Of a DNA stretch of 64,000 nt, positions 23,931 through 33,171 are shown in pieces; within the stretch, counting starts at the first letter, position 1; every line of letters begins with the position of its first letter. This stretch comes from Pseudomonas serboccidentalis. Lineage in GTDB: Bacteria; Pseudomonadota; Gammaproteobacteria; Pseudomonadales; Pseudomonadaceae. Below the pieces are notes generated by a model. The model saw nothing but the letters and a program-made list of their open reading frames with translations, was not told where the DNA came from and searched no databases. The DNA lies in contig NZ_CP101655.1 in NCBI RefSeq assembly GCF_028830055.1, positions 3,854,553-3,918,552 on the forward strand, read 5' to 3'. The position numbers were made by a program, and so were the translations under genes.

Positions 23931-24125
23931 ATGCTGATACTCACCCGCAAAGTCGGTGAAAGCATAAACATTGGTGATGACATTACGATCACCATCCTCG
24001 GCGTAAGCGGTCAGCAAGTCCGCATCGGCATCAACGCCCCGAAAAACGTTGCCGTACACCGTGAAGAGATTTATCAGCGCATTCAGGCTGGCCTGACCGC
24101 CCCGGACAAGCCACAAACTCCCTGA
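23931..24125 (+). CDS. rsmE: CsrA/RsmE-type post-transcriptional regulator
   Basis: The 64-residue protein [20 protein letters not shown]... keeps the CsrA RNA-binding strands and the [10 protein letters not shown] helix. It binds ANGGA motifs in leaders to block translation and is antagonised by RsmX/Y/Z RNAs under Gac/Rsm control. The 64-residue length and [20 protein letters not shown] core fit RsmE rather than the 62-residue RsmA of fluorescent pseudomonads. Its own SD is AAGGA, an ANGGA site, so autoregulation is possible. I exclude upstream in-frame starts because of the SD position. Confidence 0.9.
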
Positions 24126-24349
24126 GCCGCATCGCAGTCAGTAGCCAGTTCGTTTGCTCTGCGTAATGACTGGCTAAAGATTCACGCGCCGTACTTGCCA
24201 TCCGCGCCCCAGTCCACTGGGCACGGCGCCTGATATACCCTCGCCTGCGCTTCATTTGCTTCCTTTCCCCTCTTGCAGCGCGATACTACCTGCGGCTGCC
24301 CAGCCTGGCTGTCAGACATTTCCGAGAGAACACAGGGAATTGCTCCCTG

Positions 24350-24805
24350 TTAGCTGAACGTCACGCCTCGCGCCATGCCGGTGGCTGCAATCACCATCAG
24401 CACCAACAGCAGCGCCTCGACGTGACTGATCCGCGCATACAGCTTTGCACGTCCGGTATCGAGCGCCTTGCCTCGCGATAATGCGATCCGCCATTTGACC
24501 AGCGTGATCATCGGCGCCAGCTCTATCAGCAGAATCAACACGAACAGCGTCATCTTCAAATGAAACAGCGGTTGATGCAGATAGTAGTCAGTACCTTTTT
24601 CAAAGCCGCCGAAGGCGCGCATGCCACCGGTTACCAGCAACACCAGCGCGGCAATCCCCCATAGATTATCGGCAAGCAAAACCTGCCTCGCTTCGCCGAC
24701 GCCAGCAGCCAGACGACTGAACGCCGTGCCACGGGCCAACACAGCCCAGAAGCCCAAGGCAAAAGCCAGTAGATGGACAGCAGCAAGAAACCAGTGAACC
24801 AGCAT
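24350..24805 (-). CDS. DUF2214-type four-helix inner-membrane protein
   Basis: The 151-residue protein has four hydrophobic helices (LVHWFLAAVHLLAFALGFWA first, ending VEALLLVLMVIAATGMA). It has no cofactor motif beyond two early histidines. The start is placed at MLVHW, 9 bases after AAGGAG. The pattern matches the DUF2214 family of uncharacterised membrane proteins. It stands alone. Confidence 0.8.
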   Translation of the reverse strand: MLVHWFLAAVHLLAFALGFWAVLARGTAFSRLAAGVGEARQVLLADNLWGIAALVLLVTGGMRAFGGFEKGTDYYLHQPLFHLKMTLFVLILLIELAPMITLVKWRIALSRGKALDTGRAKLYARISHVEALLLVLMVIAATGMARGVTFS

Positions 24806-24954
24806 CGACGAACTCCTTTGAGAAAGCCCTGGAAAACGCCAGTCAGTAGTAGTCGAAAAAACTCGATTACGCCTGCACACAATGATGGGGCTGGAAGGCC
24901 TCGCGCAGGAAGCAGGGAAACAGAAAGCGCGATTCGCCAAATCGCAGGCAAAAA

Positions 24955-24987
24955 AAATCCCAAGCAGCTGATGGAAGCTTGGGATTT
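24955..24987. terminator. Isolated hairpin terminator
   Basis: A perfect 11-bp stem AAATCCCAAGC / GCTTGGGATTT with a run of A on its left side would end a minus-strand transcript. No gene is recognised immediately to its right (24988-25245), so it may have served a gene lost when the adjacent island arrived, or an unannotated small RNA. Confidence 0.6.
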
Positions 24988-25245
24988 AAAAATGCATAAA
25001 CCGTGGTGGTGAACGCGGGGCGAATGTTACTGAAGTTCACGATAAGCAACAACATTTTTTTGATAACCGACCGGTTAAAAATACCGGTAACCCCTTAAAT
25101 ATCCACACTTTTTTAACGGATCAAAAAAAGGAAAGAAAATTATATGAGCAGGCCGTGTTATTTCGAAACACGCTAAGCGCTCAGGGTAACGACAGATGCG
25201 AAGGCGTCGATGAAAGCGACTGGAGCAAGGCCTTGGGTAAATCGC
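24988..25245. other. AT-rich spacer left of the island
   Basis: I see no coding frame here. It contains short ACCGGT repeats near 25070-25095 and otherwise unremarkable sequence before the left direct repeat. Confidence 0.4.
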
Positions 25246-25356
25246 AGACAACAAAAAAGGGCCCACCTTTCGGTGAGCCCTTCTAGACCGCCCAGCAGAG
25301 CGGATTTTGTTTGGTAGGCGCGATTGGACTCGAACCAACGACCCCCACCATGTCAA
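25246..25356. repeat. Left 111-bp direct repeat (attachment-site copy with tRNA-Val 3' end)
   Basis: The block is identical to 31561-31671. It contains the last 45 nt of tRNA-Val(GAC) and the downstream terminator hairpin (GGGCCCACC/GGTGAGCCC). The match stops abruptly inside the anticodon arm, after GTCAA. This is the displaced half of the tRNA left by integration of an element at the tRNA 3' end. Confidence 0.95.
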
Positions 25357-25433
25357 TGTCTGCTTGAGCAAGCTGCAAGCTATGGTGTTCAAGGGCTTCA
25401 CAGAACGCCCATTCACATTATGAGGCGTCAAAA

Positions 25434-25611
25434 ATGGCCACTTTCCGCCCACTCCCCTCCGGCAACTGGAACGCCCAGGTACGGATAAAGGGTAAATCTC
25501 CCCAGTCGAAAACCTTCAGCACTAAGTCAGAAGCAGAGTCATGGGCGAAACAGATCGAAGCCGTAACGATGGATCACAAGCATCACACTATATATACGCT
25601 GGGCGATTCAA
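25434..25611 (+). pseudogene. Tyrosine-type integrase, N-terminal stub only
   Basis: About 59 residues (MATFRPLPSGNWNAQVRIKG, then KTFSTKSEAESWAKQIE) match the N-terminal arm-type DNA-binding domain of island and phage integrases. After HTIYTLGDS the similarity ends and the frame runs into unrelated sequence. The core-binding and catalytic R-H-R-Y domains are absent. The gene begins 78 bases inside the left repeat, the normal place for an island integrase. The element can therefore not excise by itself. Confidence 0.82.
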
Positions 25612-25651
25612 CCAGTGACGCCACAATCCACAACCGTTGCCATCCATTCAT
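25612..25651 (-). pseudogene. Start of a small membrane-protein gene, truncated at the integrase junction
   Basis: On the minus strand a GGAG site and ATG (25649-25651) begin MNGWQRLWIVASL, which looks like the first helix of a small inner-membrane protein. It then runs into the integrase stub near 25612. Two converging gene starts joined tail-less indicate that a deletion removed the sequence between them. Confidence 0.45.
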
Positions 25652-25908
25652 GTTGGTCTCCGTTGGAATGTCTTCATTATCTACCTGGTGGCCGTGCTGT
25701 AGGCGGCTTTGAGTAATCCAGCTACAGCAGGTAAGAACATGATCGCCATCCCCGCTGGGATTCTCAAGCTCCGTCATTCGCCGCTATCAACGCAGTAGAA
25801 GCGCCACGACTTATGCAGGCTGTTCGGCGACGCGGGAATCAATTGGTGAGGGGCATGAATAAGGTCAAAATGCGTTTAACCGCGAATGGTAGACCTCATA
25901 AAACCCTT

Positions 25909-25948
25909 ATAGAATCTATTGTGATTCTATAAAGACTCTGCGTAGAAT
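25909..25948 (+). promoter_or_regulatory. Promoter with overlapping inverted repeat for the RHH-EVE gene
   Basis: The inverted repeat ATAGAATC-N6-GATTCTAT (25909-25930) overlaps the -35 TTGTGA (25919-25924). An 18-base spacer leads to TAGAAT (25943-25948). The next gene carries a ribbon-helix-helix domain, so this may be its own operator. Confidence 0.5.
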
Positions 25949-25998
25949 GCGATACGGACCTGTGTTGGGTCTTTGGATAATCTATGTGGAGTATTTTT

Positions 25999-26622
25999 AT
26001 GAGCGATTTTTTCTCGAAGTTGGAAGCCAAGCGGAAAAGGGCTGCTTTGACTGAGTCGATGACCATACGAGTCACTGTGGAAGAGGATGCCGCAATCAAG
26101 GAGCTGGCGAATGTCTACGACCTTACACGGCAAGATTTAATACACGACTTGATCGTCGAGTACGTACTTCCAGCGTGGAAGAAGGTTGAGTCAGATGCTG
26201 CTAGTCAGATGGCTCCGCCGCCCAGGGATGATGGAAGACTGTTCCATTACGTATTGAATACGAACAAAGCAAACAGCTCTGAAGACCATGAATGGATGAT
26301 CGCAGACGGCATCGCGGCGGCGTTCGAGGATGGGTACAAGGAAAAGATTGACCGTATTAAGAAAGATGACGTCGTGTTTCTTTATGAGTCCGGCAAGGGC
26401 ATCGTGGGCTACGGTAAGGCCAATGGCGAGACCGAGGAGCGTGATCATTTTGGTGTCCCTGGCAAAACTAGATTCCAGCGACTTGATGGCTTTGTTCGGC
26501 TCGAAAAGCCGGTGTCTGCAAAAGATATCTGTGTTCGCTTGGGTCGCACTATCAAGTTTGCTCAGACACTGACCTATATATTCGATGGGAAGAAGCTGCT
26601 CGAATCCCTCGACGGCAAGTGA
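25999..26622 (+). CDS. Ribbon-helix-helix domain fused to an EVE/PUA-like domain
   Basis: This 207-residue protein looks like a two-part fusion. Residues about 18-55 (TIRVTVEEDAAIKELANVYD, then TRQDLIHDLIVEY) have the strand-helix-helix pattern of CopG/Arc repressors. Residues about 75-205 (FHYVLNTNKAN, DHEWMIADGIAAAF, KKDDVVFLYESGKGIVGYGK) resemble EVE/PUA-like domains, which read modified bases in DNA or RNA and are often linked to restriction systems. No nuclease motif is present. The start follows TGGAG; an in-frame ATG five codons upstream is less likely. It is island DNA of lower GC. The assignment is by pattern only. Confidence 0.65.
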   Translation: MSDFFSKLEAKRKRAALTESMTIRVTVEEDAAIKELANVYDLTRQDLIHDLIVEYVLPAWKKVESDAASQMAPPPRDDGRLFHYVLNTNKANSSEDHEWMIADGIAAAFEDGYKEKIDRIKKDDVVFLYESGKGIVGYGKANGETEERDHFGVPGKTRFQRLDGFVRLEKPVSAKDICVRLGRTIKFAQTLTYIFDGKKLLESLDGK

Positions 26623-26696
26623 ATTCGATAAAGGGACGTCTCCGGACGTCCATCGCATTCATTTGGGTACACCCTAGTGACCGTGCGCCGGAAAAT

Positions 26697-26760
26697 ACAA
26701 AATATGTATTCAATAGGGTTTGATTGAGATTATGAATACGTTCATATTTCAAGCCTCTGG
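26697..26760. repeat. Possible resolvase recombination site
   Basis: TATGTATTC and GAATACGTTCATA form an imperfect inverted pair about 20 bases apart, with a further GAATAC just before the resolvase gene. Serine resolvases usually act on such AT-rich inverted subsites directly upstream of their gene. This is suggestive only. Confidence 0.3.
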
Positions 26761-26785
26761 AGGCAAATGAATACAGAGGGCGGGT

Positions 26786-27337
26786 ATGTCGAGCATTGGC
26801 TATGTACGGGTTTCATCCAACGATCAAAACACGGATCGTCAATTGGATGGTGCTGCACTGGATGAGGTGTTCACTGACAAGGTGTCAGGCGCTACAACAG
26901 AACGTCCAGAGTTGCAGGCGATGCTTCGTCACATTCGCAAAGGTGATGTTCTCCACGTCCACAGCATCGACCGTCTGGCTCGTTCATTGGAAGACTTGCT
27001 GTCTTTGGTGAAAGGAATGATTGCAAAGGGTGTCGAGGTGCAGTTCCACAAGGAGGGGCTCCACTTCACTGGTGAAGCCAGTCCTATGCAGGAACTCATG
27101 CTCGGCCTGCTGGGAAGCGTTGCTCAGTTCGAGCGTGCATTGATCCGAGAGCGTCAGGCGGAAGGTATCCAGAAGGCCAAGGCAGCGGGCGTTTACAAAG
27201 GACGTGTAAAGACGGTGAATGATGAAGCCATTCGCAAGGCTATGGCAGAAGACGGGGCTTCATTTCGCAAAGTAGCAAAAGCTCTTGGCGTGAGTCTGAG
27301 CAGTGTACAACGGGCTATGAAAAACCAGCCTCTCTGA
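26786..27337 (+). CDS. Serine recombinase (resolvase/invertase)
   Basis: The 183-residue protein has the catalytic serine in YVRVSSNDQNTDRQLDG and the active-site region HSIDRLARSLEDLL. The long helix segment GSVAQFERALIRERQAEG and a C-terminal helix-turn-helix (SFRKVAKALGVSLSSVQRAM) follow. All expected residues are present and the length is that of Tn3 resolvases and DNA invertases. No transposase accompanies it. It may resolve dimers, act on the inverted repeats upstream, or be a leftover of a transposon. Confidence 0.93.
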   Translation: MSSIGYVRVSSNDQNTDRQLDGAALDEVFTDKVSGATTERPELQAMLRHIRKGDVLHVHSIDRLARSLEDLLSLVKGMIAKGVEVQFHKEGLHFTGEASPMQELMLGLLGSVAQFERALIRERQAEGIQKAKAAGVYKGRVKTVNDEAIRKAMAEDGASFRKVAKALGVSLSSVQRAMKNQPL

Positions 27338-27693
27338 AGACCCCACAAGTTCGCTCAAGGTGAGCTTTGTTGGCCTAGCCCGTTGACTGGGCCTGAAGAG
27401 GCGGTCTCTGAGGGGGCTTGAGAGGCCTCTGGTGACAGAGGGTTATTTCTATATTACTTAGCTTTCTATTTACTTCCGTTGCGCTGTGTTAAGCACCCCA
27501 GATAGGTCGCAAGATTATTTTCTGGCTGGAAAACCCAGACGAGTCTCGAATTGCATCGAAAAAAATCGGCGGGTATGGGGTAGTTTGGCAGGAGGGGCAC
27601 GCTGGGGGGGGCAAGCTGTAGCTTTTTCTATTCGCTTCTCATACTCTCCGACAAGAATCTATCACACAGTGCTGGCAGCAGGGACGAAATCAA
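27338..27693. other. 356-bp intergenic region with hairpins
   Basis: No convincing gene is present. It contains a hairpin GGCCTAGCCCG/TGGGCC near 27372-27395 and the palindrome AGAGGCCTCT near 27421-27432. A GTG-started frame of 71 codons (27486-27701) ends inside the start of the next gene, but it has no ribosome-binding site and a G-run-rich sequence, so I do not call it. The promoter of the Rel-like gene must lie here. Confidence 0.4.
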
Positions 27694-28716
27694 TTGAATG
27701 ACATGGTTGTAGGTTTCCCAGGTGGTTCAAAGTCACGCGTTAATGCTGCTGGCTATAGCATCCGTGACCAGCGTGCGAGCATTGAAGATATGCACGTAAT
27801 TGACGAGTGGCGAGCCGCCCACCGTATCGTTTTGAACACCTTTCAAGCGAGCCTACGAAGTCGCACTCGAGGCAAGCAAATCGTTGTCGCTCAAAGGCAT
27901 AAACGTAAGAACACGATTTTCCATAAATTGATGCGACTTCCAAAGATGGAATTGTCCCGCATGGATGATGTAGCGGGGTGTCGCCTTATATTTCGCTCGA
28001 TTGAAGAGCTATATGAGTTTCGAGAGAGTTTTCATAAAGCACGATTCAACCATAAACGGAAAAATGAAGTAGATAAGTATGACTACATCAAGCGCCCAAA
28101 ACAAACGGGCTACAGGGGTATTCATGATGTCTACTCATATGACGTGCGGTCAAAAAACGGTGATCAGTACCGCGGGCTTTTGCTCGAAATCCAGTATCGA
28201 ACGTTAGTTCAGCATGCTTGGGCAACGGCAGTTGAAGTGATTGGATTTATCACTGAAAGTCAGCCTAAGTTCCAGCAGGGCGATAAACGATATGAAAATT
28301 GCATGGCTCTCGCTAGCGAGATTCTCAGTAGAGCTCACGAAGGAAAGACTGGCCCATTTCCTGACTATAGCAATGGGGAGCTGCTTCAGCGATTTGAAGA
28401 TGTCGATAAAGAGATTCATATTATCAGAACCCTCACAGGGCTGAATTCTTCGGAAACTGTGTACACAGATAGTCGTAACTCCATTCTTATATTCAAGGAT
28501 GATGGTAGTCTCGAAGTGAAGAGCTTTAAAGAAGCGCCAGACGCATTAAGGGAGCTATTTCGATTGGAGAGAGACTTTCCCACACTTGATGTAGTTCTGG
28601 TTAAGGCGGACACGAACGAAGAAATTCGAATGGCATTTAAGAACTACTTCTCTGACGCAAAGGATTTCATCAAGCTGCTGACGGACGGACAGCGAATCCT
28701 TGAGTTGATTGCCTGA
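27694..28716 (+). CDS. Stand-alone RelA/SpoT synthetase-domain protein
   Basis: This 340-residue protein has a nucleotide pyrophosphokinase domain at about residues 50-190. Motifs are HKRKNTIFHKLMR (ATP-binding basic residues), RMDDVAGCRLIF (metal Asp), TGYRGIHDVY (Tyr and His) and LLLEIQYRTLVQHAW (catalytic Glu in ExQ), so the site looks intact. There is no HD hydrolase and no TGS/ACT domain. A C-terminal domain (about 200-340) of unknown type follows. Such proteins include small alarmone synthetases and toxic synthetases of toxin-antitoxin or phage-defence systems. The start is TTG with AGGGA upstream, or ATG three codons later. No separate antitoxin gene adjoins it. Confidence 0.85.
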   Translation: MNDMVVGFPGGSKSRVNAAGYSIRDQRASIEDMHVIDEWRAAHRIVLNTFQASLRSRTRGKQIVVAQRHKRKNTIFHKLMRLPKMELSRMDDVAGCRLIFRSIEELYEFRESFHKARFNHKRKNEVDKYDYIKRPKQTGYRGIHDVYSYDVRSKNGDQYRGLLLEIQYRTLVQHAWATAVEVIGFITESQPKFQQGDKRYENCMALASEILSRAHEGKTGPFPDYSNGELLQRFEDVDKEIHIIRTLTGLNSSETVYTDSRNSILIFKDDGSLEVKSFKEAPDALRELFRLERDFPTLDVVLVKADTNEEIRMAFKNYFSDAKDFIKLLTDGQRILELIA

Positions 28717-28732
28717 GCCTGCAAGAGCCCAG

Positions 28733-28756
28733 AGCCCGCCGTTGAGCGGGCTTTTC
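28733..28756. terminator. Terminator between the Rel-like and immunity genes
   Basis: Stem AGCCCGC / GCGGGCT with a 10-base-or-shorter loop, followed by a T-rich tract, lies between the two converging genes. Confidence 0.8.
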
Positions 28757-28763
28757 TTTTCTC

Positions 28764-29015
28764 TCAGCTCTTAAAGCCCGGTAGATTATGCTCACAGCAA
28801 TAGTCACCTACGGTGCGTGTCACTCCATCTGCTGAATCATCCTCGCCAGCCTCTGGGTAGAACAGTAAGTCGCTTCCTGCCGGATGGGGAACAATCTTGT
28901 TGAAGTGATCGACAAGCTCGCCCCGTTCATCCTCGGTCTTTGCGTCTTCAATCGCCTGAATCAGCGACTTGAATTCCTGTTCGGTGTAGTCAGCCAACTG
29001 GCTCTTCAATTCCAT
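28764..29015 (-). CDS. Colicin/pyocin DNase immunity protein
   Basis: The 83-residue acidic protein has MELKSQLADYTEQEFKSLIQ at the start and PAGSDLLFYPEAGEDDSADG in the middle. This is the signature of immunity proteins to colicin E-type and pyocin S-type nucleases, whose 'HPxGSDLIYYP' loop plugs the HNH nuclease. The start codon overlaps the toxin stop by one base (TAATG), giving coupled synthesis. It protects the producer and kin. Confidence 0.95.
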   Translation of the reverse strand: MELKSQLADYTEQEFKSLIQAIEDAKTEDERGELVDHFNKIVPHPAGSDLLFYPEAGEDDSADGVTRTVGDYCCEHNLPGFKS

Positions 29016-30361
29016 TACTCAACTCCCCTGTGAATGTCGATATGGCGTCTTGGGGTGACGACATTGATGTTGTCGGTATCGTATACCGCACCACCATCCT
29101 TGATTAGTTCGATGTGGTGCAGCTCGAATGCGATTCGCTTTCCTGCATGTCCGGCCCTCGGTGTAACAGGTGCCAGACCATTTAGCATTCCTTTCAGATT
29201 ACGTTCGTTGAATTGCTGACTGAGCTCTGGGTCTTTAGCTACAAGCACCCAGAAGGTTTGCCGGAAAGTGTCGAAGTCCTTGAATTCCCGTCCCCGCAGT
29301 TGGTTTGCGATCTGTGAGGGAACAGGTACGCCAAGCCCCACACCAGCGCCTGCAAGCCAGATTCCTACTACGTCCTGCCCTTGGCCTGTAACAGTGCCTG
29401 GCTTTCGACGGACGTTCATCACGATGTAAAGCGGCTGCACTCCCGAGTCGGCAGGGAATACCAGAATGAAGTCTTTGTACTCGGGCGGGTAGATCGGGTT
29501 AACGATGATGCTATCTGCTTTCTCAGACGGTGGATAAATCCATATCTGCGGGGCTTGAGGTGCACCCTCTAACGGTGGGATTCCATTCGTACTGGATGGG
29601 TCAACGGCTGGTGTCCAGATCAGGGTTATACCATCTCCGAATTCTGCCACCTGCTGAGAGCCTTGCTCAACAAATTGCACCACGGGAATCATCTCCCAGT
29701 CAGTGCGCCTCTGTGTGTTGTAGCCGTATCCCTTTAAGGTGCCATCGGCCTGTTGCTCGACGTGAATCCGAAGCCGTGTGCGACCTTGCTTAAGGGATTG
29801 AAGCTGTTCATCTGTGTACAGGCTGCTATCACCCAGACTGGAAGGCCACAGCAGGGCTACAAAGCCAGCTAACGCACCAGCAGCAACACCAGTAGTGATC
29901 ACACCGCCAGTTGCTCCCGTAGCGCCTATGCCCGTTGCAGCACTTCCACCAGCAGCACCGGCACCAGCCACCCCGGCTGTACACAGACCACCACAGGACA
30001 CGCCAGCAGCCGTCGCAGCAGCGCCGCCCAACATGAGTGTTCCAAGGGTTGCCGGTAGCGCACCACTCACTTTCTTTAGGGGAATGTTCCCCTGTGCGTC
30101 CGTCTCACGGCCACCGAGGATGGCAAGCTCACCGTAGTTGCTCACCTTCTCGACAGGGATGAATCCGGCTGGTTTCTCGTGGTCGATCACGCCGTCTGGA
30201 AGATCGCAGCTCTTGGCGAACACACACCCCAAGCTATTTGGCTTGGCTTCCTCTTTGGGGGTAAGGTCTTTGTATTCAGCCCAACGCTGGGCGTGGATAT
30301 CGACAGGCTCAACACCGCTGTAGCGGTAGCCCTTCGGTGGGTTGGGTACATAACCAGACAT
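29015..30361 (-). CDS. S-type pyocin with HNH DNase domain
   Basis: The 448-residue bacteriocin starts MSGYVPNPPKGYRYSGVEPV after AAGGAAG. A Gly/Ala-rich hydrophobic segment lies at about 135-200. The pyocin-S translocation domain follows at about 210-350 (LRIHVEQQADGTLKGYGYNT to FPADSGVQPLYIVM). The C-terminal HNH nuclease carries FELHHIELIKDGGAVYDTDN and ends RRHIDIHRGVE, with all catalytic histidines present. The N-terminus is too short for the usual large TonB-dependent receptor-binding domain. It is encoded with its immunity gene and should degrade DNA of related strains. Confidence 0.92.
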   Translation of the reverse strand: MSGYVPNPPKGYRYSGVEPVDIHAQRWAEYKDLTPKEEAKPNSLGCVFAKSCDLPDGVIDHEKPAGFIPVEKVSNYGELAILGGRETDAQGNIPLKKVSGALPATLGTLMLGGAAATAAGVSCGGLCTAGVAGAGAAGGSAATGIGATGATGGVITTGVAAGALAGFVALLWPSSLGDSSLYTDEQLQSLKQGRTRLRIHVEQQADGTLKGYGYNTQRRTDWEMIPVVQFVEQGSQQVAEFGDGITLIWTPAVDPSSTNGIPPLEGAPQAPQIWIYPPSEKADSIIVNPIYPPEYKDFILVFPADSGVQPLYIVMNVRRKPGTVTGQGQDVVGIWLAGAGVGLGVPVPSQIANQLRGREFKDFDTFRQTFWVLVAKDPELSQQFNERNLKGMLNGLAPVTPRAGHAGKRIAFELHHIELIKDGGAVYDTDNINVVTPRRHIDIHRGVE

Positions 30362-30655
30362 GCAGCTTCCTTTCGTCCTTGGGAATTCCAGCCGTAGCTG
30401 GGGCAACATTGACGTTATCGAGAAGCGCACGCAATGGCTGTAGGACTAATCCCAAAAGCCCTGCAGATGGTTCTCTGTATTCCGTGTCGTTTGCTGAGGG
30501 AGCGAAGGATAAATGGTTGGGGCGAGACTTTGAATGGTGGCTACAGGCCAGTTCAAAACACTTTTGATTAACTAAATCTCTTCGTGGGGAAGGTGCTTGG
30601 CTAGGAATCTCAATCGCTTCCGGCTAGTCTCCGGCCTTAATCAAAAGGAGTTGTC
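30362..30655. promoter_or_regulatory. Divergent control region of the pyocin gene
   Basis: These 294 bases separate the pyocin gene (-) from the membrane-protein gene (+). Near 30407-30440 there is an imperfect inverted pair CATTG...CAATG. I find no convincing LexA box and no clear repeated PrtN P-box. The plus-strand gene has AAAAGGAG 9 bases before its ATG. Confidence 0.35.
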
Positions 30656-31243
30656 ATGAGTCCGAGATTCATACTGATTGTTGCGGGCGTCGCCCTGTCG
30701 CTCATGGCAGCAGTCGTTACAGCTTACCTCGATATGTACGGCGTCAGTCGCGTATATGACCAAGCAATGTGGGGCGCATTCGGTGATTACTTCGGCGGAA
30801 TCTTGAATCCGATATTTGCGTTGTTTGCCTTTCTCGGCGTGCTTTGGTCGCTTGACGTGCAAATGAAGCAGGTTCGGCAGCTTGCATTGGACAAAAAGGC
30901 GGACGAAATCTTGCAAGTTGTGAAGGATATCGATGCGCGTCTTTCCGAATTACTCCAAACGCATTTAGGGCAAACGTCTGGTTTCGATATTCACATTTCG
31001 CACATGGTTGCAGAAGCAGGTCGGGGGGCTAAACAAAAAGGGGATTCGAATAGCTACAACCAGTTTCTACAGATATCCATCGATCCAGGGTCATTGGTGG
31101 AGGCAGCAGTCAGAGAAATTCTGACATCAAGTTTCAACAATGTGCGAATTCCTACAGAGCTACCCTCAGCAACAAGGTGGCGGGTAAACACCGATAATCG
31201 AGTACTACGCCAGCAAAACCTCCCGCTTGATTCCGATGCTTAA
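30656..31243 (+). CDS. Two-helix membrane protein resembling putative phage abortive-infection proteins
   Basis: The 195-residue protein has two N-terminal membrane helices (FILIVAGVALSLMAAVVTAY and NPIFALFAFLGVLWSL). Between them is MWGAFGDYFGGIL, a feature of a family labelled putative phage abortive infection (putAbiC). A charged helix (VRQLALDKKADEILQVVKDI) and a soluble tail follow. Related proteins are usually longer, so the C-terminus may be truncated; it ends shortly before a decayed stretch. No experimental function can be claimed. Confidence 0.6.
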   Translation: MSPRFILIVAGVALSLMAAVVTAYLDMYGVSRVYDQAMWGAFGDYFGGILNPIFALFAFLGVLWSLDVQMKQVRQLALDKKADEILQVVKDIDARLSELLQTHLGQTSGFDIHISHMVAEAGRGAKQKGDSNSYNQFLQISIDPGSLVEAAVREILTSSFNNVRIPTELPSATRWRVNTDNRVLRQQNLPLDSDA

Positions 31244-31350
31244 TGACTTGGGCGGCTTACCCGATTCCACCCGAGCTTTTTTCGCCCTAAGGAAAAGGAG
31301 CGGAGGTAACGGCTTTCAAACATCACTGTAGGGAATTCCAAAGCTACTGG
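31244..31350. other. Decayed or non-coding stretch before the tandem repeat
   Basis: A plus frame is open from 31291 through the repeat to 31485 (GKGAEVTAFKHHCREFQSYW then repeated VQE) but has no start codon or ribosome-binding site. It may be the remnant of a gene. Confidence 0.35.
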
Positions 31351-31404
31351 GTGCAGGAAGTGCAGGAAGTGCAGGAAGTGCAGGAAGTGCAGGAAGTGCA
31401 GGAA
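31351..31404. repeat. Tandem repeat, 9-bp unit x 6
   Basis: Six perfect copies of GTGCAGGAA run head to tail. The unit length is a multiple of three, so any frame through it stays open: Val-Gln-Glu on plus, Phe-Leu-His on minus. It lies between the membrane-protein gene and the right island end, in no credible gene. Confidence 0.95.
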
Positions 31405-31500
31405 GGTACAGTCGAAATGCACAATGAAATTGTTATTTTCGGTATGAACCTCAACGAACATTGCCTGACACCCACTCTACCGTGACCGCAGCAATACCAA

Positions 31501-31524
31501 CGTTCACATTGCCGGGTGTGAACG
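31501..31524. repeat. Inverted repeat at the right island end
   Basis: CGTTCACA and TGTGAACG are 8-bp perfect arms 8 bases apart. They lie 37 bases inside the right direct repeat. They could be a binding site for an excision factor or integrase arm, or a chance hairpin. Confidence 0.4.
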
Positions 31525-31560
31525 AACTCGATATTTTGCGAACGTTCTGCAAGAAATCCA

Positions 31561-31671
31561 AGACAACAAAAAAGGGCCCACCTTTCGGTGAGCCCTTCTA
31601 GACCGCCCAGCAGAGCGGATTTTGTTTGGTAGGCGCGATTGGACTCGAACCAACGACCCCCACCATGTCAA
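31561..31671. repeat. Right 111-bp direct repeat (attachment site within tRNA-Val)
   Basis: This is identical to 25246-25356. It covers the 3' 45 nt of the intact tRNA-Val(GAC) gene plus 66 bases beyond it, including the tRNA terminator hairpin (31573-31594). The 6.2 kb between the two copies is the inserted island. Confidence 0.95.
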
Positions 31672-31703
31672 GGTGGTGCTCTAACCAACTGAGCTACGTG
31701 CCT
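31627..31703 (-). tRNA. tRNA-Val (anticodon GAC), intact
   Basis: The minus strand gives a 77-nt cloverleaf with encoded CCA. Anticodon stem CCACC/GGTGG encloses loop TTGACAT, so the anticodon is GAC. Its 3' part is duplicated 6.3 kb to the left, showing that this gene was the integration target and was rebuilt by the element. Confidence 0.96.
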
Positions 31704-31887
31704 GCTGTGAGGCGGCATTCTACGGAATTCCGGAGGGGTGTCAACACCTTTTTTTCACCTAACCCTATGAATATGCAAAATATTTAATTTCGGGCCGGCG
31801 AAGAAGATTTTTCCGGTGGCTGGCGGAGGTTTTTCAACTCGGGTAGGATCGGTGCACTCGTAAAATATATTAAACAGAGGCTGCAGG

Positions 31888-33171
31888 ATGGCGAACACCC
31901 CTTACCCAGAGTCTTATTACGCTGCGTCGGCTAATGCCGTACCGCCACGTCCGACCTTGCAGGATGATGTGGAGACGGATGTCTGTGTGATCGGCGCCGG
32001 GTACACCGGGCTGTCCTCGGCGTTGTTTCTGCTGGAGAACGGTTTTCGCGTGACGGTGCTGGAAGCGGCCAAGGTCGGTTTCGGTGCTTCAGGGCGTAAT
32101 GGCGGGCAGATCGTCAACAGCTATAGCCGCGACATCGACGTTATCGAACGCACTGTCGGCCCCAGGCAGGCGCAACTGCTCGGGCAGATGGCTTTTGAAG
32201 GCGGCCGGATCATCCGTGAGCGCGTTGCCAAGTACAACATCCAGTGTGACCTGAAGGATGGCGGCGTGTTCGCCGCCCTCTCCGCCAAGCAGATGGGCCA
32301 CCTCGAATCGCAGAAGCGCCTGTGGGAACGCTTCGGCCACACGCAACTGGAACTGCTCGACGAGCGCCGCATTCGCGAAGTGGTGGCCTGCGATCAGTAC
32401 GTCGGCGGCATGCTCGATATGAGCGGCGGCCACATCCATCCGCTGAACCTGGCGCTGGGTGAGGCCGCCGCGGTGGAATCCCTCGGCGGCACCATTTACG
32501 AACAATCGCCCGCCGTACGCATCGAGCGCGGCGCCAACCCGGTGGTGCACACGCCGCAGGGCAAGGTCAGGGCCAAGTTCATCATCGTCGCCGGCAACGC
32601 CTACCTCGGCAATCTGGTGCCGGAACTCGCGGCCAAATCCATGCCATGCGGCACCCAGGTGATCACCACCGAACCGCTGGGCGAAGAACTGGCAAAATCC
32701 CTGCTGCCACAGGATTACTGCGTCGAAGACTGTAATTACCTGCTCGACTATTACCGCCTGACCGGCGACAAGCGCCTGATCTTCGGTGGCGGCGTGGTTT
32801 ATGGCGCGCGGGACCCGGCGAACATCGAAGCGATCATCCGCCCGAAAATGCTCAAGGCGTTCCCACAACTGAAAGACGTGAAGATTGATTACGCGTGGAC
32901 GGGTAACTTCCTGCTGACCCTGTCGCGCCTGCCGCAGGTCGGTCGCCTGGGCGACAACATCTATTACTCGCAGGGCTGCAGCGGCCACGGCGTGACCTAC
33001 ACACACCTGGCGGGCAAGGTGCTGGCCGAAGCGTTGCGCGGTCAGGCTGAGCGTTTCGATGCGTTTGCCGACCTGCCACACTACCCGTTCCCCGGCGGGC
33101 AGTTGCTGCGTACGCCGTTCGCCGCGCTGGGCGCGTGGTATTACGGCTTGCGTGACAAACTGGGCTTCTGA
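31888..33171 (+). CDS. puuB: FAD-dependent amine oxidoreductase, gamma-glutamylputrescine oxidase type
   Basis: The 427-residue DAO-family flavoprotein has the dinucleotide-binding motif VCVIGAGYTGLSSALFLLEN at about residues 31-50 and FGASGRNGGQIVNSYS after it. The C-terminal LPQVGRLGDNIYYSQGCSGH completes the FAD fold. It resembles PuuB, which oxidises gamma-glutamylputrescine to the aldehyde in polyamine catabolism. No other puu genes are visible nearby, so another amine or amino acid remains possible. Confidence 0.75.
   Translation: MANTPYPESYYAASANAVPPRPTLQDDVETDVCVIGAGYTGLSSALFLLENGFRVTVLEAAKVGFGASGRNGGQIVNSYSRDIDVIERTVGPRQAQLLGQMAFEGGRIIRERVAKYNIQCDLKDGGVFAALSAKQMGHLESQKRLWERFGHTQLELLDERRIREVVACDQYVGGMLDMSGGHIHPLNLALGEAAAVESLGGTIYEQSPAVRIERGANPVVHTPQGKVRAKFIIVAGNAYLGNLVPELAAKSMPCGTQVITTEPLGEELAKSLLPQDYCVEDCNYLLDYYRLTGDKRLIFGGGVVYGARDPANIEAIIRPKMLKAFPQLKDVKIDYAWTGNFLLTLSRLPQVGRLGDNIYYSQGCSGHGVTYTHLAGKVLAEALRGQAERFDAFADLPHYPFPGGQLLRTPFAALGAWYYGLRDKLGF

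Follow-up and report, generated by a model that had tools for sequence, protein, structure and literature searches.

A tRNA-Val(GAC) genomic island of Pseudomonas serboccidentalis with an integrase stub, a CapRel-like gene and a DNase bacteriocin gene

Among the described islands of Pseudomonas that carry defence genes, the closest are those at the transfer-messenger RNA (tmRNA) gene of P. fluorescens, which according to the available part of PMC12595487 have a tyrosine integrase, repeats and defence genes and no recognised transfer genes; one of them was shown to be moved by a jumbo phage, and many such islands use tRNA genes. In P. aeruginosa, the core defence hotspots cDHS1 and cDHS2 adjoin tRNA-Pro or tmRNA (PMC10250203, in excerpt), and one island at a tRNA-Val is reported from strain UW4 (PMC3596284, in excerpt). 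The subject of this work is the segment at positions 25246-31671 of a 64,000-nucleotide stretch of P. serboccidentalis DNA (the window; positions 3,854,553 to 3,918,552 of the forward strand of NZ_CP101655.1), which is part of one 5,997,322-bp contig. We propose that this segment is very probably an integrated, integrase-broken member of a Pseudomonas tRNA-Val island family, mosaic in make-up, with a cargo that would serve defence and bacteriocin roles.

The kind of element is already known from the tmRNA and tRNA defence islands (PMC12595487, available part); what is new is this tRNA-Val member family, of which no published description was found in the titles and abstract beginnings of the literature searched. 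Like islands I23, I44 and I55 of strain SBW25, as that source portrays them, the family unites a tyrosine integrase with putative phage-defence cargo and with direct repeats located at a small-RNA gene's 3' end, has no recognised transfer genes and is widespread in Pseudomonas. The SBW25 islands occupy tmRNA, have a 14-bp repeat, span 23-55 kb and carry AlpA at the far end, whereas the islands described here use tRNA-Val, have a 111-bp repeat that includes a terminator, measure 2.6-13.7 kb from the distal repeat to the tRNA and carry the integrase at the tRNA-distal end; no AlpA was detected among the window's island proteins scanned against Pfam. The cDHS1/2 hotspots share with them a variable defence cargo at a fixed core site next to a tRNA or tmRNA gene, but are, in the excerpt of PMC10250203, not the work of a single element family, whereas many occupants of the tRNA-Val site bear the marks of a single integrase family and a single right-end signature. 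A single integrase and a single 45-bp end signature serve to recognise the tRNA-Val landing site, and what began as one odd repeat becomes a defined site whose single-copy, intact, broken and collapsed states can be counted across the genus. The recurrent decapitation of the integrase and a mobile block of cargo are the points of interest, and the family makes it possible to study the frequency with which mobile defence islands become permanently captured.

The perfect repeat reported in an earlier note on this DNA, made from the letters alone, is exact: positions 25246-25356 equal 31561-31671 at a spacing of 6315, with a chance expectation of about 3e-58 in 64 kb. It comprises the 3'-terminal 45 nt of tRNA-Val(GAC) and 66 bp downstream, whose transcript forms a strong hairpin with a T run after it; in the simple reading, the repeat is this long because the island carries its own tRNA 3' end and terminator. 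The segment is an integrative genomic island at a tRNA gene, and its attachment (att) repeats restore the tRNA 3' end. The GC content is 50.5% within the island and 59.8% in the remainder of the window, and the flanking sequence outside the distal att copy ends in AAATCGC, as it does at most single-copy sites. A search of window positions 24000-33000 against Rfam returned only the tRNA and four sub-threshold hits. The parts by which the island is recognised are these:

25246..25356, no strand: tRNA-distal att copy (the 111-bp repeat, with the 3' 45 nt of tRNA-Val and the terminator)
25434..25604, plus strand: integrase stub (homology with the integrase genes of subfamily A ends at 25604 in the DNA, the protein match runs to 25613 and the stub frame is open to 25712)
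31501..31560, no strand: right-end signature common to the family, three GTTCACA/TGTGAAC-type motifs, one of them altered in the window
31561..31671, no strand: tRNA-proximal att copy (the 111-bp repeat)
31627..31703, minus strand: tRNA-Val(GAC), the integration target

Relatives of this island encode a tyrosine integrase of about 318 amino acids just inside the tRNA-distal repeat, of which the window keeps the first 57-60 codons (residues 1-60), so that the absence of an intact integrase from the island, noted earlier, stands. Integrase and right-end signature were surveyed in 398 genomes of the genus, its own (G000) included; genomes and loci are cited by our G and L numbers. The protein survey for the family integrase took the best five candidates per genome, and the DNA surveys, one of them with the first half of the island, the best two to three, so counts and absences from all of these are lower bounds. 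The integrase count omits all matches below 40% identity, which are other integrases, as well as a second piece of 66 residues in G101. By identity to the integrase of G213, we define subfamily A (about 83-100%, window included) and subfamily B (about 68-77%). Of twenty fetched pieces, 19 reach the tRNA, and in each of these the distal repeat is followed by the second repeat, then by tRNA-Val and then by the right flank known from the window; an integrase gene, intact or damaged, lies directly inside the distal repeat. When nine subfamily-A islands (window included) were compared in 36 pairs, only two ends were common to all, a left end of at least about 358 bp (repeat and integrase start) and a right end of about 200 bp; the remainder was patchy or unrelated. 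The three GTTCACA-type motifs of the right end keep a constant spacing in many islands, while the exact motifs are absent in G151, G370 and G192. Counted at no more than two mismatches, the 45-bp right-end pattern occurs in 30 of the 398 genomes (none with the same pattern read backward), and the window has it at one mismatch. The window island thus has both marks of the family, the integrase start inside the distal repeat and the right-end signature inside the tRNA-proximal one.

The reading as an acquired island is borne out elsewhere in the genus, where both single-copy sites and islands with a full integrase exist. Loci L078 (G047) and L077 (G074) have a single repeat, no island and no right-end signature, and one repeat is also present at the tRNA-Val site of G353 (L130). 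The flanking genes, a DUF2214 protein and, by our reading, an oxidase, are kept at variable spacing in the survey of 99 genus genomes, own included (best three candidates each, hence lower bounds). The repeat itself is strongly conserved across species, with 97-100% identity to the window copy in eight of nine small-gap or single-copy loci and 93% in L078. A single repeat with a small gap and a version of the right-end signature in G011 (L010) looks like a collapsed island. The whole island was not found in any second genome (best two to three candidates per genome, one search with its first half only). The view that repeats and genes are core DNA present at this place in all relatives therefore fails, on the single-copy sites, the complete islands and the lack of a second whole copy. 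Other species have different content at the site; in G098 (L079-L081), for instance, an element of about 56 kb without the end signature lies between two copies of the repeat at tRNA-Val.

Loss of the integrase recurs within the family. Among resolvable carriers in the 398 genomes, at least 16 integrases are intact and at least eight clearly broken (G000, G086, G192, G274, G316, G337, G351, G363); G030, split over contigs, and G212, a contig-end piece, are unassignable to either state and stand outside this count. The 36-codon stub of G363 lies between both repeats and fell below the threshold of the integrase survey; in G269 a family integrase is missing although both repeats and the end signature are present. 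The stubs match 36, 60, 90, 148, 210 and 277 residues and two further cases are frame breaks; since the break points differ, the losses look mostly separate. Homologs of the window's pyocin (other bacteriocin types are outside this count) occur in three of eight integrase-broken and none of 15 integrase-intact islands examined whole (Fisher p 0.03), a post hoc comparison among related genomes in which removal of one broken pyocin island gives p 0.09; G178 (piece short of the tRNA), G030 and G212 (contig ends) and G269 (no integrase, no pyocin) were left out. The tie between pyocin and broken integrase is weak.

The earlier suggestion that identical repeats point to a recent insertion is not supported. 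Among islands with an intact integrase, the two repeats agree fully (100%, aligned part) in G256, G294, G139 and G151, and are 98-99% identical in G213, G301 and G370 and 87-92% identical in eight others; in broken ones the values are 100% for the window, 88% for G337, 90% for G086, 94% for G192, 99% for G274 and 100% for G351 (70 bases aligned). With a spread of 87-100% whatever the integrase state, and a repeat conserved between species, repeat identity is rejected as an insertion clock, and reports mostly which attP version an island carried.

In the sequence of events that we propose, the family inserts in the 3' end of tRNA-Val(GAC), as the island anatomy and the single-copy and filled sites show. 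A tyrosine integrase would have recombined the island-borne tRNA 3' end and terminator with the chromosomal copy, leaving the tRNA whole and terminated, and the right end of about 60 bp with its three GTTCACA-type motifs would probably bind a protein, either that integrase or an excisionase. Most of the integrase gene was later lost, and the element should accordingly be unable to excise unaided. The island is a mosaic, in that the ends come from the tRNA-Val family and the block of resolvase, CapRel, immunity and pyocin genes occurs in other settings as well. The features between the ends are:

25744..25779, plus strand: match of 33-35 bp to a stretch of G353 that lies directly before the block's left edge (by eye, the 3' end of a small open reading frame (ORF) there)
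25999..26622, plus strand: 207-amino-acid protein with a ribbon-helix-helix (RHH)-like N terminus and an EVE/YTH-like C-terminal domain
26654..26785, plus strand: conserved left edge of the block, with GTATTCA-type repeats, a putative res/crossover region
26786..27337, plus strand: small serine resolvase, 183 amino acids (PF00239, E 4e-39)
27694..28716, plus strand: CapRel-like protein, 340 amino acids, RelA_SpoT domain, PADLOC PDC-S33
28764..29015, minus strand: colicin/pyocin immunity protein, 83 amino acids (PF01320, E 7e-22)
29015..30361, minus strand: S-type-pyocin-like DNase bacteriocin, Pyocin_S and Col-Pyo_DNase domains, 448 amino acids from the ATG at 30361
30362..30549, minus strand: conserved pyocin upstream region with a recurrent right edge near 30549
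30656..31243, plus strand: membrane protein, some homologs of which are named 'phage abortive infection protein'
31351..31404, plus strand: 9-bp tandem repeat in six copies, between the abortive-infection (Abi)-like ORF and the right end

The gene content read earlier stands for the integrase stub, resolvase, pyocin, immunity protein, EVE protein and membrane protein, is backed by sub-threshold matches only for the RHH part, and has to be relabelled for the supposed lone Rel-like synthetase. The latter is better called CapRel-like over 94% of its length, aligning with CapRel-SJ46 at residues 12-330 with 27% identity, a range that takes in the putative C-terminal antitoxin (pseudo-zinc-finger domain, pseudo-ZFD) region. 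The excerpt of PMC9712102 gives R79, R116 and Y155 of CapRel-SJ46 and the YXXY neutralising motif; the equivalents of the three residues are kept as R68, R97 and Y140 (the G-loop tyrosine and two adenine-coordinating arginines). The window protein resembles CapRel-SJ46, as described there, in uniting a RelA/SpoT-type toxin domain with kept catalytic residues and a C-terminal extension, and differs in its low identity and in the motif, which reads FXXY. By homology, it most likely acts as an abortive anti-phage sensor and toxin of the CapRel type, which would modify tRNA once a phage protein displaces the antitoxin domain. The DNase bacteriocin and its immunity protein, by the same kind of argument, most likely act against other bacteria. 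The pair resembles S-type pyocins and DNase colicins in its Pyocin_S domain, Col-Pyo DNase domain and PF01320 partner; the start at 30361 is likely by comparison with G086, G053 and G395.

Several points weigh against the reading of an integrase-broken family member with these roles. The neutralising motif reads FXXY at residues 315-318 (as in eight other homologs aligned beside SJ46), because of which we use the name 'CapRel-like' rather than CapRel. The bacteriocin departs from S-type pyocins and DNase colicins in that its 448-residue form shows no Pfam domain before residue 184 or so, where no receptor-binding domain is recognised, and it resembles the VPA1263 model of type VI secretion system (T6SS) effectors at 247 bits; the cut-off is 900, and membership in that effector family was rejected as far under the curated threshold. 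Finally, the genome sample holds species representatives only, from which the time of the integrase loss is not datable.

A different account of the cargo, which we hold as tentative, is that the block was placed and exchanged by its own small serine resolvase at the conserved upstream region, as a cassette system on several island types. Window positions 26654-30498 (resolvase, CapRel, immunity, pyocin) are collinear with 3866 bp of G395 at 84% identity, in a site with no tRNA gene in the surrounding 20 kb; the tRNA-Val sites of G395 and G353 themselves show one repeat copy each and lack a family integrase. Resolvase and CapRel (83%) also occur in G353, between a NACHT-like gene (our reading) that follows them and an ORF for a large serine recombinase about 3 kb away on the other side. 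In P. sputi (L109) their neighbours are a comM-like fragment (comM by our reading) and a large serine recombinase, so that the pair is known from a tRNA-Val island and from two large-serine-recombinase settings. The start of homology to G395, G353, G363 and G017 is shared to within 6 bp, the preceding DNA being unrelated, and this edge lies about 130 bp upstream of the resolvase gene, the position expected of res, which makes cassette exchange plausible and the best lead from the island. The block would then begin at a putative recombination region of the small serine resolvase. In P. sputi, however, the edge is about 43 bp further in (26697), and no second res site appears at the right side of the block. 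The edges could also stem from ordinary homologous recombination or transposition, and the resolvase might merely resolve dimers or cointegrates. Five other CapRel-like loci likewise speak against the cassette account: L110 has no small resolvase, L111 has a different one, and L112-L114 have none at E 1e-6 in the protein comparison of loci. The available part of PMC12529663 describes the role of small serine recombinases in phage defence as unknown, and the present block allows one to ask whether such recombinases beside defence genes act as cassette exchangers.

In G086 (L069:3828-4604), the integrase ORF is cut and goes on as a C terminus of serine-resolvase type, which looks like the product of recombination between the two kinds of gene and also fits the cassette account. 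The pyocin upstream region (window 30370-30549) recurs at 72-80% identity in G269 (near a PAAR-like ORF), G183, G363 and G086 (L123, L120, L128 and L069), which suggests a shared control region or a recombination joint for competition toxins.

That the island is non-autonomous rather than stranded, the integrase of an incoming relative being able to excise or move it in trans through its intact ends, is unlikely, with evidence on either side. Both repeats are exact and the signature is one mismatch from the pattern; eight broken-integrase islands keep both repeats, and G269 keeps them with the signature in the absence of a family integrase. Nine of the 30 signature genomes have no family integrase in the survey (best five candidates), the signature lying directly before the tRNA repeat in eight and before a partial-tRNA copy of the repeat in G137; the position in G137, and the match outside the distal repeat in G151, are as expected for tandem islands. 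Against mobility in trans, the only family-integrase match in the window's own genome is the stub, with no intact copy among the best five candidates, and among the candidates scored no second genome showed anything close to the whole island. The mismatch counts of the signature show neither decay nor upkeep: among integrase-less or broken islands G086 and G274 have 0, G000, G337, G351 and G316 have 1, G269 has 2, and G192 and G363 have more than 2, while the intact ones have 0 in ten, 1 in three and more than 2 in G331, G370 and the own right end of G151. A visible decay of right ends in broken islands was accordingly dropped as a candidate. Rather less probable still is a combined system of two layers, in which the integrase would fix the ends and integrase-less derivatives would persist or move in trans with their att and arm sites, while a resolvase layer would swap blocks between unrelated island types such as the tRNA-Val, G353 and P. 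sputi settings.

Besides G137 (L117) and G151 (L103), a second signature is found left of the island in G129 (L125); these extra signatures are signs of successive insertions. In G151 the signature match outside the distal repeat lies next to host-side DNA and the island's own right end has all three motifs altered alike, a pattern that suggests an earlier island and a bound protein with a shifted target.

A prophage or phage-satellite remnant is improbable, and we rejected it: the island interior has no DNA match in 50,697 phage records, and no structural or packaging gene was found among the island proteins scanned, while the subfamily-A relatives hold variable cargo between the same ends. 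What speaks for it is the tyrosine integrase at a tRNA gene, the phage-like genes (PHROG matches) of subfamily-B islands at the same site, six phage records that encode distant CapRel-like relatives, and phage-family matches in the subfamily-A relatives G274 and G294 (HNH endonuclease, phrog_3360). Plasmids gave no DNA match to the interior either. Tandem tRNA-Val copies in some congeners (L104, L106) could be cited for an ancient duplication of the tRNA end that encloses core genes, but this reading is excluded in its simple form by the single-copy sites and is highly improbable given also the integrase stub, the low GC content and the absence of the right end from L077 and L078.

To return to the integrase-broken island and its relatives, ten selected cargo proteins of four relatives were scanned, and four matched defence models: two reverse transcriptase (RT) proteins in G294, PDC-S15 in G301 and PDC-S60 in G256. 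There was no match to Pfam (E 0.01) for seven of the ten, to PHROGs for five and to PADLOC (E 0.001) for six. The set included P0005, the 216-amino-acid relative of the ORF at 30656, which has no Pfam family at E 0.01; the window's membrane protein departs from this 216-residue family in its last part, by our reading of the DNA through a change of frame. The earlier suggestion that the cargo may be retained for its usefulness is weakened by this departure in one of its genes. For the protein at 25999-26622, an EVE/YTH-like fold is found for residues 78-207; the RHH part has sub-threshold Pfam matches only and is barely covered by the fold comparison, and a sequence search of solved structures gave nothing at E 1.

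The subfamily-B islands, possibly a phage-satellite family, measure 6.4-7.1 kb in 11 of 12 and 4.7 kb in G192. Small DNA-binding-like ORFs recur in L095, L097, L104 and L106, and a helicase-like ORF is present in the islands of G290, G129 and G370, matching phrog_2467 in G290 and G370. All 12 (L095-L106) contain a conserved stretch oriented opposite to the tRNA (e.g., L095:12077-12247, minus strand), whose beginning repeats nucleotides 1-24 of tRNA-Val (0-2 mismatches, 12 of 12) and which includes part of the 5' leader in 11 and lies 368-371 bp from the 5' end of the tRNA gene in ten; the remainder appears by eye to be a degenerate tRNA with an insert. Its best match in the window and the compared subfamily-A islands has 8-10 mismatches. 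As an RNA structure, the stretch has no covariation support, with none of 33 predicted pairs changed on both sides.

The C4 antisense RNA and its a1/b1 targets have matches at L103:14826-15024, immediately beyond the distal repeat of the island in G151. In the window's own genome, two further places (G000:C1:612031-612470 and 4976358-4976808) have 65% DNA identity to the DNase end of the pyocin gene.

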